Of a stretch of DNA of 28,016 nt, positions 2,818 to 19,400 are shown piece by piece. The stretch lies in contig CAIJMQ010000025.1 of assembly GCA_903821905.1 (NCBI GenBank), forward strand, positions 1-28,016, written 5' to 3'. The position numbers and the translations under genes are program-made. Position 1 is the first letter of the stretch. Each line of letters starts with the position of its first letter. The notes below the pieces were generated by a model. It saw only the letters and a program-made list of their open reading frames with translations, searched no databases and had not been told where the DNA came from. The stretch comes from an uncultured bacterium. Lineage in GTDB: Bacteria > CAIJMQ01.

Positions 2818-3810
2818 TTATAACATACTCTTAAAATATTCTAAATATTCTTTGGCTACCTCGGGGGAATATATTATAAGAACATTTTCTCTGTTTTTAT
2901 TTAGACCAGCTAGAGTTGGATTTAGTGAACCAGTAATGACTATATTCTCATCAATAATGAAGAATTTGTGGTGAAAAGCAAAAGTATAATTTTTATCTTT
3001 TTTCACATCCATCTTCATAAGTTCAAACCATAGGTATTTACTATATGGTCCTATCTGCTCATATTCCATAACACCTTTTACGTCTATTCCCTCTTTCGTC
3101 TTTTTTATCAAAGTCTTTGCAATTTCTGGATGAGTTATGGTGAATTGCGCAAAATAAATACTAGACTTTGCATCTTTAAGTAATTTGAGCATTTTATCCA
3201 ATATAATAGCTCCATCTTTGGGCGAGAAATAAACTTCTATTATTAGATTATTAATTTTTATTTGATGATTTAAATTTTCCTTTGAATTGTCAATCTTATC
3301 TCCCCATAATTTTTCAAATTCTTGGGTATAGATACCAGCCAATTCCTCTGATTCAATTGCTATAGCATCGTTATTTTCATAGACAGCGTAAGGATTGGGA
3401 TTATAAGAACCTGTCCATACTATTTTGTCGTCTATAACACAGAATTTATTATGCATAAGCCCTTTCGTGATTGTATCTTCCCTTGCCAGGCCAAAGTTTT
3501 TAAGCTTTGGATAGAATGAATCCTCTTCAAATAATCTCCCCCTATCCATGACAATTTGCACTTTTACTCCCTTAAGATGAGCTTTTATCAAAGCATATGC
3601 CACTTCTTCGCTATTTACAGCATAAAAACATGCCTTTATATCCTCTTTAGCATCACCAATATATTCAGCAAGTTTATGGTTTAAGTCGGCGGGGGGAGAA
3701 AAAAATGTTTTTATATGAGAAGGATGATCGGTATCCTGCCATGCCGAAGAAATAAAACAGGAAATTAACGCTATTACTAAGATTAGCAGAAGTTTCCTAT
3801 GAATTATCAT
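2818..3810 (-). CDS. Exported phospholipase D-family (Nuc-like) protein with two HKD motifs
   Basis: A 330-residue bilobed PLD-superfamily protein. The N-terminus is a signal or lipoprotein leader (residues about 5-22, LISC could be a lipobox at Cys18). HKD motif 1 is His120-x-Lys122-x4-Asp127 followed by TGSYNPNP; motif 2 is His280-x-Lys282-x4-Asp287 followed by TGSLNPT. The FFSPPAD and YFSPKDG openings of each half are like those of Nuc-type endonucleases rather than cardiolipin synthases, and the multi-TM N-terminus of Cls is missing. The ATG overlaps the comEC stop by 14 nt, with GAGGGC in the comEC tail as ribosome site. It is probably a periplasmic or membrane-attached nuclease, but a phospholipase cannot be excluded from sequence. 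Confidence 0.88.
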   Translation of the reverse strand: MIIHRKLLLILVIALISCFISSAWQDTDHPSHIKTFFSPPADLNHKLAEYIGDAKEDIKACFYAVNSEEVAYALIKAHLKGVKVQIVMDRGRLFEEDSFYPKLKNFGLAREDTITKGLMHNKFCVIDDKIVWTGSYNPNPYAVYENNDAIAIESEELAGIYTQEFEKLWGDKIDNSKENLNHQIKINNLIIEVYFSPKDGAIILDKMLKLLKDAKSSIYFAQFTITHPEIAKTLIKKTKEGIDVKGVMEYEQIGPYSKYLWFELMKMDVKKDKNYTFAFHHKFFIIDENIVITGSLNPTLAGLNKNRENVLIIYSPEVAKEYLEYFKSML

Positions 3811-5293
3811 GTTTAAGCCCTCGTATTAATTCTTTGAATTCAGGATAAAATAAAAACAGAATAACTGCAAAATAGTAGATTAAGATAATACTCAAATCAA
3901 ATATCGGAAGTTTACTATAAGCAAAAGGCCAAGATGACATTATTTCGGATATTTTTAGTAATAAGAAAACTGTAAAATTTAACAGTGCTTCTATAAAGTA
4001 AGATAAAAACGGTGTCACCAATATGGATATTAAAAGGATAAATCCGCAAGCTAGTATTAGGTTCGACAGTGGCACAATAATTAAATTACTAAAAGGTCCT
4101 ACCCAAGATATATATCCAAAATAATAAGCCACTAAAGGTAAACTACTTAACCAAGCGGCAATTGAAATAAGAAATATCCTCACTGGCAAAATGGGTTTTA
4201 GTTTTAAAGCCTTCTCAAGTTTGGGAGTAATAATTGCCATCCCCAATACAGTTATAAAAGATAACTGGAACCCTATATCAAAGAGACAATATGGATTCCA
4301 CAAAAGTATCAAAAGAGAAGCTACTGATAGGGTTATGAGGATATTTGTCTTACGTCTAATTATGTATCCTAGAAAGAAAACGTTTATCATTATGGCAGAC
4401 CTAACAATAGGAGCTCCTAACCCAGTAATAAGAGCATAAAAAATAACAAGTATAAAAACGATGCTATATGATATCCTTTTGGGAACATTGAACAACTTTA
4501 AAATAATTAAGAAAATTCCGCTCATCATCACAACATGAAGCCCGGATATTGAAAGAATATGCACCACACCAATTTGAGTGAACATCTCTCTAATCTGGTT
4601 CGGTATAATCCCCGTCTTAAGCATCATCCCTCCCAATACAGGAAAATAGACAGGAGATATATAACTTGAGAAAGCATTTATCAACGCCCTCTTTATTTTC
4701 AAGGCACCCTTGACGAGTGGATTAACTTTCCCTTCCCCAACATACTGAATCTTCCCACGTTCTTTTATATTAATAGTAGCTGATATGTTTTCTCTCTGAA
4801 GATATCTTTTAAATTCTCCTTCCTCTGGAATACGCAAAACCCCTGAAAATTTGTACTTTTCACCATAGAGAATATCTCTCTTTTGAAATCTTACTTTTAC
4901 GAGGACTTTACATTTTGAGGGTAGAATTTCTTTGCCATCCGATAATTCAAGTTTCTCTACTTTAACTACCAGATTAGTCTGCCAATTCCGAATGTCGGGT
5001 TCAGAAATGATTACTCCCGTCAATTTAACTGGCCTATCTTTAAGTTTTTCTATATTAGAAGAGGTTATAAAAAAGTATTTGTTCGTATAAACAATAAATA
5101 ATAATAGTAAAAATATATACAAAAGAGTGTGGAGAATTTTGGTATATTTTTTAAAGAAAGAAATACACAAAAAGAAAAACAATATTAATGAATAACAGAT
5201 TATGAAAAGTAAAGAAATCGATATGTGTGTCCCTATGATAATTCCCAATATGTAAACTATTGCAATAAGGACTAAAGTCGGGATTTGAATCAA
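3797..5293 (-). CDS. comEC: ComEC/Rec2-family DNA uptake channel without metallo-β-lactamase domain
   Basis: A 498-residue polytopic membrane protein. It has two or three N-terminal membrane segments (to about residue 75), a soluble β-rich domain (about 80-200, DUF4131/OB-like), then the Competence domain with the hallmark HILSISGLHVVMMSG and ITGLGAPIVRSAIM segments and further helices to the end. Full ComEC proteins are usually 650-800 residues because of a C-terminal metallo-β-lactamase-like domain. Here the frame stops cleanly after a short basic tail, so that domain is absent. The start is TTG, with AAAGGA 4 nt upstream. The family transports single-stranded DNA into the cytoplasm. The next gene overlaps and encodes a PLD-type nuclease. 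Confidence 0.92.
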   Translation of the reverse strand: MIQIPTLVLIAIVYILGIIIGTHISISLLFIICYSLILFFFLCISFFKKYTKILHTLLYIFLLLLFIVYTNKYFFITSSNIEKLKDRPVKLTGVIISEPDIRNWQTNLVVKVEKLELSDGKEILPSKCKVLVKVRFQKRDILYGEKYKFSGVLRIPEEGEFKRYLQRENISATINIKERGKIQYVGEGKVNPLVKGALKIKRALINAFSSYISPVYFPVLGGMMLKTGIIPNQIREMFTQIGVVHILSISGLHVVMMSGIFLIILKLFNVPKRISYSIVFILVIFYALITGLGAPIVRSAIMINVFFLGYIIRRKTNILITLSVASLLILLWNPYCLFDIGFQLSFITVLGMAIITPKLEKALKLKPILPVRIFLISIAAWLSSLPLVAYYFGYISWVGPFSNLIIVPLSNLILACGFILLISILVTPFLSYFIEALLNFTVFLLLKISEIMSSWPFAYSKLPIFDLSIILIYYFAVILFLFYPEFKELIRGLKHDNS

Positions 5294-7268: not shown

Positions 7269-7715
7269 TTATTCAATAACAGTAACATCTTTTACAAGAT
7301 AAGTAGTTTTTGACCTCCAAGGGACACTGCCCGCCTTCTGTTCATATATAATGTTTACAGTTTTACCATTAGCATAAGCACTGTTTATCTTTTGCAATAA
7401 TTCTTCCCTATTGGGAGCCATATTATCTATTGAAAAATTCCAAACATAAGTAGTAGCAATGCCATGCCCCGGGGCCATAATACCCTGCACCTCCCATGTT
7501 TTCCAAATAAGCCCCCTCGAGGCAATTTTGACAATCTGGACTTTTCTTTCTCCTTCGCTGTATTGAATATTTACTCCTATTGGTCCCCACAATGCTCTCC
7601 CAAAAAATATCAAGAAAAAGAACGTTCCCAATACCAGCCATGCAATTTTATTCTGTTTTTTCATTCTATTATGATAAACTTCTCTCTTTTTTGTTTTCTC
7701 TTCTTCTGTAAGCAT
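7269..7715 (-). CDS. Conserved hypothetical protein with one transmembrane helix
   Basis: A 148-residue protein. A charged N-terminal stretch (1-22) is followed by one membrane helix (about 24-42) and a predicted β-rich soluble domain. The YSEGERKVQIVKIASRG and IWKTWEVQG segments, with a later SVPWRSKTTYLV, fit a small family of one-TM proteins that I recall mostly under an erroneous 6-phosphogluconate dehydrogenase label; there is no dehydrogenase motif here. A TTAGGA ribosome site precedes the ATG. It follows the CDF transporter on the same strand and converges on yjbQ. Function unknown. Confidence 0.75.
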   Translation of the reverse strand: MLTEEEKTKKREVYHNRMKKQNKIAWLVLGTFFFLIFFGRALWGPIGVNIQYSEGERKVQIVKIASRGLIWKTWEVQGIMAPGHGIATTYVWNFSIDNMAPNREELLQKINSAYANGKTVNIIYEQKAGSVPWRSKTTYLVKDVTVIE

Positions 7716-16708: not shown

Positions 16709-16756
16709 ATGAAAAAATGCCCTTATTACGGCAAGGATATTGAAAGGATGAGATAA
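16709..16756 (+). other. Short leader-like ORF, possible remnant of a zinc-ribbon start
   Basis: A 15-codon ORF, MKKCPYYGKDIERMR, with a good AGGAG site seven bases upstream. Its stop TAA overlaps the ATG of the next gene (TAATG). It looks like the standard opening of zinc-ribbon proteins (MKKCPYCGK) in which the second cysteine codon has become tyrosine. It may be a decayed duplicate of the following gene's N-terminus, or a leader peptide that couples translation. Too short to call a gene with confidence. Confidence 0.4.
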
Positions 16757-17181
16757 TGCCGATTGTTGATATGCGATGCCCTCGTTGTGGGAAACAAGCC
16801 ACAGAGTACGAGAAAAACAAGTGGCGATGTTTAATCTGTAACAATAAATTTATATATGAGACCCCTGTTCAACCTAACAGTTGTACTGTAGAACAGCATG
16901 TCAACCAAACCATTTTCGACAAGCAGGCTCAGCCAAAAACAAAGTGGTATTTTAAAACTCCTTGGATAGTTATTGCTTTTCTAAGTGTAGGCCCCCTGGC
17001 TTTGCCGATGGTTTGGTTTAATCCCCGTTTCAGCCAGAAAACAAAGATAATCGTAAGTATCGTAACTATAATAATTGTTATTTTAAGTTATTATTTATTG
17101 GGTTATTTATTTACTAATCTCTGGAAGTGGTTTAATACAGGATACTTAAACCAGACTGATAACCTCTTCCAAGGTTTTTAG
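16756..17181 (+). CDS. Zinc-ribbon membrane protein of unknown function
   Basis: A 141-residue protein. The N-terminal zinc ribbon has Cys8-x2-Cys11 and Cys25-x2-Cys28 (MRCPRCGK and RCLICNN). After a linker come two predicted membrane helices (about residues 70-90 and 95-120, WIVIAFLSVGPLALPMVWF and IIVSIVTIIIVILSYYLLGY). This zinc_ribbon plus two-TM layout is common among small bacterial proteins of unknown role. An AAAGGATG site precedes the ATG. It lies between der and plsY in the same orientation. No function can be assigned. Confidence 0.72.
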   Translation: MPIVDMRCPRCGKQATEYEKNKWRCLICNNKFIYETPVQPNSCTVEQHVNQTIFDKQAQPKTKWYFKTPWIVIAFLSVGPLALPMVWFNPRFSQKTKIIVSIVTIIIVILSYYLLGYLFTNLWKWFNTGYLNQTDNLFQGF

Positions 17182-18827: not shown

Positions 18828-19400
18828 ATGACAGATACCAGTGTAAAAGAAAAACAAGCTTTTATAGAAGCACAGTTTAAAAATTTAGGGGTAACGTCTA
18901 CATTTTTATTGCCGATTATTGCCTTCCTTGGTTTCAAGGCTCAGGATATTCTTCCTTTTTTATTCGGGAAAGAATCTCAATTTATGGTTTTGCCATTCCA
19001 GATTATCGTCTGGGCTGTGATTTTTGTTTATTACAGTTATGTACTATTGAGGATAGCATTGTTTCTAAATAAAAAACAGACAATTTTACTTAGTTTGGCA
19101 GTAGAAGCCCTTTCTGCAATGGTATTAAATTTTTCCCTAATACCGGGTTATGGGTTAGTAGGATTAAGCATAGCTTCTGTTGTTACGGGGATACTAATGT
19201 TCTTCTTTATCATCTTTTCTCTTGCAAAGGACGGGATAAGGATACCCCTGTATAAGTCTTATGAGAAACCCGTCATTGCAACTATGGGATTGACTCTCGT
19301 CTTGCATTATGTGGATTCGTGGCCTTTTCCGCTCATTCTTTTCTGTAGTATAGTTGGTTATTGTTTAATCTTGATAATAACTTGTGCTTTGGATAAATAA
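18828..19400 (+). CDS. C-terminal half of a polysaccharide flippase (Wzx/MATE-like), probably truncated
   Basis: A 190-residue membrane protein with about five to six helices. ILPFLFGKESQ, LRIALFLNKKQTILL and MVLNFSLIPGYGLVGLSIASV match the second half of Wzx-type oligosaccharide flippases (polysaccharide biosynthesis C-terminal domain). Full members have about 12-14 helices and 400-500 residues, so the first half is missing. An AAAGGA ribosome site precedes the ATG, and the frame is open throughout, so it may still be expressed. It sits between gpsA and the rpsB promoter with no glycan genes around. Either a 5'-truncated remnant or a stand-alone half; remnant is more likely. Confidence 0.65.
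   Translation: MTDTSVKEKQAFIEAQFKNLGVTSTFLLPIIAFLGFKAQDILPFLFGKESQFMVLPFQIIVWAVIFVYYSYVLLRIALFLNKKQTILLSLAVEALSAMVLNFSLIPGYGLVGLSIASVVTGILMFFFIIFSLAKDGIRIPLYKSYEKPVIATMGLTLVLHYVDSWPFPLILFCSIVGYCLILIITCALDK

Follow-up and report, generated by a model that had tools for sequence, protein, structure and literature searches.

Gene content and organization of the locus

The window (the whole 28,016-nucleotide stretch of DNA that was analyzed) corresponds to contig C25 of a draft genome of 1.30 Mb (G000), a MAG that is 84% complete. Its minus strand carries two overlapping genes: comEC (3797..5293), which starts with TTG and encodes a protein of 498 residues, and a gene with an ATG start (2818..3810; 330 residues) whose product is predicted to be an exported two-domain PLD-superfamily nuclease of the NucT/Nuc/Zucchini type, referred to below as PLD. 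The overlap between the 3' end of comEC and the 5' end of the PLD gene (14 nt; 3797..3810, minus strand) was read directly from the sequence, and a putative Shine-Dalgarno-like GAGGG (3818..3822, minus strand) lies within comEC, 7 nt before the PLD ATG. No RNA structure was found at the comEC–PLD junction (z 1.3).

The ComEC protein consists of a DUF4131/OB-fold region (residues 30–179; 4757..5206, minus strand; PF13567, E=7.8e-18) followed by a Competence (channel) domain (residues 230–485; 3839..4606, minus strand; PF03772, E=2e-57, above cut-off). Both are features of ComEC/Rec2 proteins, the DUF4131 region being frequent among them rather than universal. The chain ends 13 residues past the Competence domain and has no Pfam match to Lactamase_B; it lacks the C-terminal MBL domain with metal ligands that characterizes three-domain ComEC proteins, and it scores below the cut-off of the NCBIfam ComEC_Rec2 equivalog. 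This is the only Competence gene in the G000 genome (n=1).

The PLD protein contains two PLDc_2 domains (PLDc_2 E=3e-47, Pfam) and two exact copies of the motif HxK(x)4D(x)6GSxN: HNKFCVIDDKIVWTGSYN (residues 120–137, H120..N137; 3400..3453, minus strand) and HHKFFIIDENIVITGSLN (residues 280–297, H280..N297; 2920..2973, minus strand). The motifs are conserved across relatives and, together with the PLD fold, place the protein in the PLD superfamily. Its N-terminal hydrophobic helix (residues 5–25; 3736..3798, minus strand), which may be a signal anchor or a lipoprotein signal, includes the lipobox-like LISC (residues 15–18), and many PLD relatives have lipoprotein-like signals with lipoboxes. 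Given this helix and the signals in relatives, PLD is likely to be exported and tethered to the membrane. Our analysis thus confirmed what the sequence-only reading had described, i.e., a 498-residue ComEC that stops after the Competence domain without an MBL domain, a 14-nt overlap with the next gene, and a protein with two intact HKD motifs encoded there, whose export is a sequence-based prediction.

That reading had also assigned PLD to the Nuc-like type, and sequence comparisons agree: the nearest solved relatives by sequence profile are Zucchini/MitoPLD, Nuc and NucT (E 1e-27 to 1e-15), with phospholipases far behind (E 1e-06 or weaker). NucT models also rank first in NCBIfam, all below cut-off; PLD falls short of the NucT equivalogs (NCBIfam, PRK13912) at 77.9 bits vs 297, 75.6 vs 211, 62.7 vs 225, and 42.4 vs 351. 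Cardiolipin synthase is also matched weakly in NCBIfam (4.3e-08). The AF2 model of PLD (pLDDT 92) has a two-domain PLD fold plus an N-terminal helix, and its C-terminal half fits NucT with an rmsd of 1.4 over 143 residues. In whole-chain fold matches, however, a phospholipase D (7e0m) ties with the PLD3/PLD4 exonucleases, so that the fold alone fails to separate nuclease from lipase. The model shares the two-HKD pseudo-dimer fold of PLD3/PLD4 (Z ~32), although these are lysosomal eukaryotic 5'-3' exonucleases to which the sequence match is weak (E ~1e-06).

Conservation of the comEC–PLD pair

Adjacent or overlapping comEC and PLD genes on the same strand were found in eight genomes from three families: the window's own family, f1 (G000, G001, G002); f2, another family of the window's class (G004, G005); and f77, a family outside the class (L082/G127, L083, G269). 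L082 and G127 are one genome, as judged by contig position and identical PLD, and were counted once. In G001 and G002, an MBL-less ComEC of 523–525 residues, which shares the TTG start, is followed by an overlapping PLD gene whose product is 59–61% identical to that of the window; since the overlaps there are 14 and 20 nt, the arrangement in the window is not a contig artefact. The overlaps measure 47–50 nt in G004 and G005 and 22 nt in L082 and L083, spanning 14–50 nt wherever they were read, and in G269 the PLD gene adjoins comEC by coordinates. Linkage in close relatives, on which the sequence-only reading had let its proposal depend, is kept wherever a relative of the class has comEC or PLD (G001, G002, G004 and G005), and also in the other family, f77. 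Neither comEC nor PLD was found in G003 and G006, both of which are incomplete genomes.

The pair is kept while the flanking genes change between families. In G001 and G002, nadD lies downstream; in the window, a GH5-family cellulase-like lipoprotein gene (1725-2804) stands between the PLD gene and nadD; and in f77 the neighbors are a beta-propeller gene and purB. The GH5 gene has no counterpart at this position in G001 and G002, which suggests an insertion or a loss. Elsewhere in the window, ORFs of 141–190 aa (7269-7715, 16756-17181 and 18828-19400) have no Pfam match.

A survey of 337 genomes found the close PLD clade (>440 bits) in eight, seven of which have it beside comEC; in the eighth, G033, PLD is on a different contig from comEC. 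In the nearest lineages without linkage, the Aerophobetes group and others, PLD is encoded elsewhere in the genome, and no other strong PLD hit lies beside ComEC among the ComEC places listed. Among the papers searched, none ties ComEC to PLD or HKD nucleases; one match, on Chlamydia, concerned a phospholipase D unrelated to ComEC.

Decay of the ComEC MBL domain

In an intact ComEC MBL domain, seven positions hold conserved ligand-type residues, which mostly read HDDHDHH or HHDHDHH. All linked genomes examined have lost either the whole domain or its metal ligands: f1 lacks the domain altogether; in f2 the first ligand block is QNEN, or is missing or unaligned; and in f77 that block is RSDH, with no alignment of the later ligands. 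The C-terminal remnant of f2 is colinear with the MBL domain but matches it weakly (hhalign E 0.0015, probability 17%), and its AF2 model, made from a single sequence, has a pLDDT of 48 and was not used as evidence. Where a C-terminal extension persists in relatives of the same class, its metal ligands are gone. Ratteibacteria have QGNHSAL at the ligand positions. The domain is deleted in the Aerophobetes group (G033, G061, G063), where the sequences of G062 and G066 are fragments.

A separate MBL-domain partner encoded elsewhere in the genome, which the sequence-only reading had considered fatal to its own proposal, was sought with a ComEC-MBL profile: G000–G006 and G033 yielded no stand-alone ComEC-type MBL. 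Nor did the genomes of the lineages above, where the best non-ComEC matches reach ~33 bits vs ~300 for true domains. As to a hidden partner in G000 itself, the three Lactamase_B proteins of that genome were rejected, as only one of them matches the profile, with 22 bits vs ~300.

Phylogeny, selection and distribution

In the ComEC tree, the lineages just described form one 13-row clade (SH-aLRT 96), and the PLD tree contains a matching 16-row clade (99), close to the PLDs of DPANN archaea; both trees come from quick searches and contain some long branches. Complete deletion of the MBL domain occurs in two separate places within the ComEC clade. As the association of comEC with PLD is essentially that of one clade, it cannot serve as a test of repeated co-evolution.

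For three pairs compared by the Nei-Gojobori method, dN/dS is 0.26, 0.11 and 0.14 in PLD, close to the 0.15, 0.11 and 0.11 of the Competence domain. Both genes are under purifying selection, and the low values identify PLD as a maintained gene. The MBL remnants, with 0.27 (f2) and 0.20 (f77), are less constrained than the channel.

In a sample of 54 rows, the MBL domain has been lost in 25 of 34 rows with a two-domain PLD vs 7 of 20 others (Fisher p=0.009; the rows are not independent and the sample is enriched for PLD carriers), and an independent-pairs test of MBL loss against the wider PLD family was not significant. In view of this enrichment and of the independent pairs, we do not claim that MBL loss predicts PLD generally. 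By our reading of the 337-genome survey, other PLD carriers show mixed MBL states. The expectation that an MBL-less ComEC would always be accompanied by PLD failed, many MBL-less ComECs elsewhere being found without such a PLD (e.g., G010, G028, G032).

Outside the linked clade, exported and often lipoprotein-like two-HKD PLDs with 31–43% identity to the window protein are encoded by DPANN archaea (Woesearchaeota and others, L084–L151), and no Competence match was found in the searched DPANN genomes that have them. Hydrogenedentota have PLD relatives in genomes whose ComEC MBL is intact. Three distant relatives were seen on viral contigs.

Concerning other competence genes, DprA was found in the genome search. 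A search with HHH_3 revealed no stand-alone ComEA in G000–G002, G000 being an incomplete MAG (84%), so that natural competence in these organisms is only putative. The HHH_3 matches lie inside large ORFs or in a neighboring radical SAM gene; the open frames of 1314–1484 aa that contain HHH_3 are at G000 C121:58199, G001 C10:10906 and G002 C4:23045.

Discussion

Competent bacteria take up one strand through ComEC and degrade the other, a task that falls to the ComEC MBL domain or, in S. pneumoniae, to EndA (PMC12455585, PMC5031224). H. pylori is described as having a ComEC without an MBL domain and no EndA (PMC5031224); its NucT, a PLD nuclease that is exported, associates with the membrane and has been implicated in transformation, has been proposed to degrade the non-entering strand, and the transformation defect reported for nucT mutants is only mild (PMC5714352). 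By analogy, this combination of an MBL-less ComEC and NucT is a known precedent for our reading of the comEC–PLD pair. NucT is a homodimer of single-HKD chains; the window protein instead joins two HKD domains in a single chain, and its similarity to NucT falls short of the family cut-off. The H. pylori sources cited here describe no comEC–nucT linkage in the passages concerned, whereas the genes overlap in the window. A second parallel is S. pneumoniae, where the ComEC MBL is degenerate and inactive and the second strand is degraded by the separate membrane nuclease EndA (PMC5031224, PMC12455585); EndA, however, is a beta-beta-alpha-metal nuclease reported to have no homology to NucT (PMC5714352). 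Three-domain ComEC proteins (Bacillus subtilis; the ComEC of PMC12455585) likewise have an OB fold followed by a Competence domain, but their chain also contains the MBL nuclease domain that is deleted in the window.

Since ComEC of this small group of uncultured bacteria has lost its degrading domain and its gene overlaps that of an exported PLD, strand cutting has probably passed to a separate PLD partner. We estimate at roughly one in two the probability that the pair constitutes a DNA-uptake unit in which a membrane-anchored, NucT-like putative nuclease supplies the activity lost with the MBL domain. The two genes would form a translationally coupled unit, with ComEC providing an OB-fold DNA-binding module and the membrane channel, and with PLD, once exported, anchored to the external side of the cytoplasmic membrane through its N-terminal helix or a lipid. 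We infer that PLD is a nuclease that interacts with ComEC: its two HKD half-sites would combine into one pseudo-dimeric active site and cut the non-entering strand with the phosphohistidine chemistry of Nuc and NucT, which needs no metal. In this lineage, the MBL domain, which is metal-dependent, would first have lost its metal ligands and then have been deleted. A more tentative proposal, to which we give a little under even odds, is that ComEC has ceded degradation of the non-entering strand to a metal-independent PLD nuclease encoded in its operon, the two proteins making up a dedicated two-component DNA translocator. The split DNA-uptake unit envisaged by the sequence-only reading therefore stands in part: the kept linkage, the failure to find an MBL partner, the nuclease-type sequence of PLD and the ligand loss speak for it, while MBL-less ComECs without PLD, the unlinked PLD of Aerophobetes and the PLDs of archaea without ComEC speak against it.

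PLD might instead be a general exported nuclease that scavenges nucleotides from extracellular DNA or RNA, sharing an operon with comEC since both serve nutritional use of DNA rather than strand degradation at the channel. This would suit the reported implication of H. pylori NucT in purine salvage (PMC5714352) and the finding that the closest outside relatives belong to DPANN archaea without a Competence match and in many cases have lipoprotein-like signals. It leaves unexplained, however, why the MBL ligands have been lost in every ComEC of the clade, and it is weakened by the presence of PurD, a de novo purine gene, in G000–G002, G004, G033, G061, G063, G068 and G069, since no purine auxotrophy is evident in these genomes; we regard it as unlikely.

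Persistence of the pair in three families despite neighbor turnover, the gene overlap, the strong purifying selection on PLD, and the finding that other strong PLD hits are never beside ComEC among the places listed all argue for functional coupling. We therefore think it quite unlikely that the MBL domain was lost by drift, as in many bacteria, and that PLD adjoins comEC through vertical inheritance of an old operon, even though MBL loss is common and scattered (Lactamase_B is present in only 52.3% of Competence-domain proteins; PMC6299819) and the co-occurrence of ComEC and PLD is confined to one clade, in which MBL loss and PLD presence may simply have been inherited together. That PLD is a phospholipase or a phospholipid-synthesis enzyme without a role in DNA uptake is highly improbable, as the tie of 7e0m with PLD3/PLD4 and the weak cardiolipin synthase match are opposed by sequence profiles that favor Zucchini, Nuc and NucT and by best NCBIfam matches to NucT models, albeit below cut-off.

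If the pair is such a dedicated translocator, it would add a third way of degrading the strand to those of the ComEC MBL domain and EndA, and present-day lineages would still show its stages (ligand loss, truncation, deletion). The question of which nuclease acts on the second strand where ComEC has no working MBL has been put explicitly for H. pylori (PMC5031224, PMC12455585), and the conserved comEC–PLD operon with its decaying MBL domain offers a concrete, testable candidate. Nuclease genes that overlap comEC could serve as a simple criterion for spotting other MBL replacements.

Further ComEC variants were noted during this work. In G258 (C39:15719-17360), a Competence-only ComEC ORF adjoins an ORF with an intact ComEC-type MBL (294 aa), and at L180 (G083, Muiribacteriota) such an ORF adjoins a separate intact ComEC-type MBL ORF of 371 aa; these are apparently natural ComEC splits, or frameshifts. 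In the Anaerolineae L157, L159, L166 and L171 (G095, G091, G105 and G085), ComECs of normal length have lost most or all of the MBL metal ligands (e.g., SRENNNH and SQEDSDH), and an unlinked two-domain PLD is present in the same genomes.
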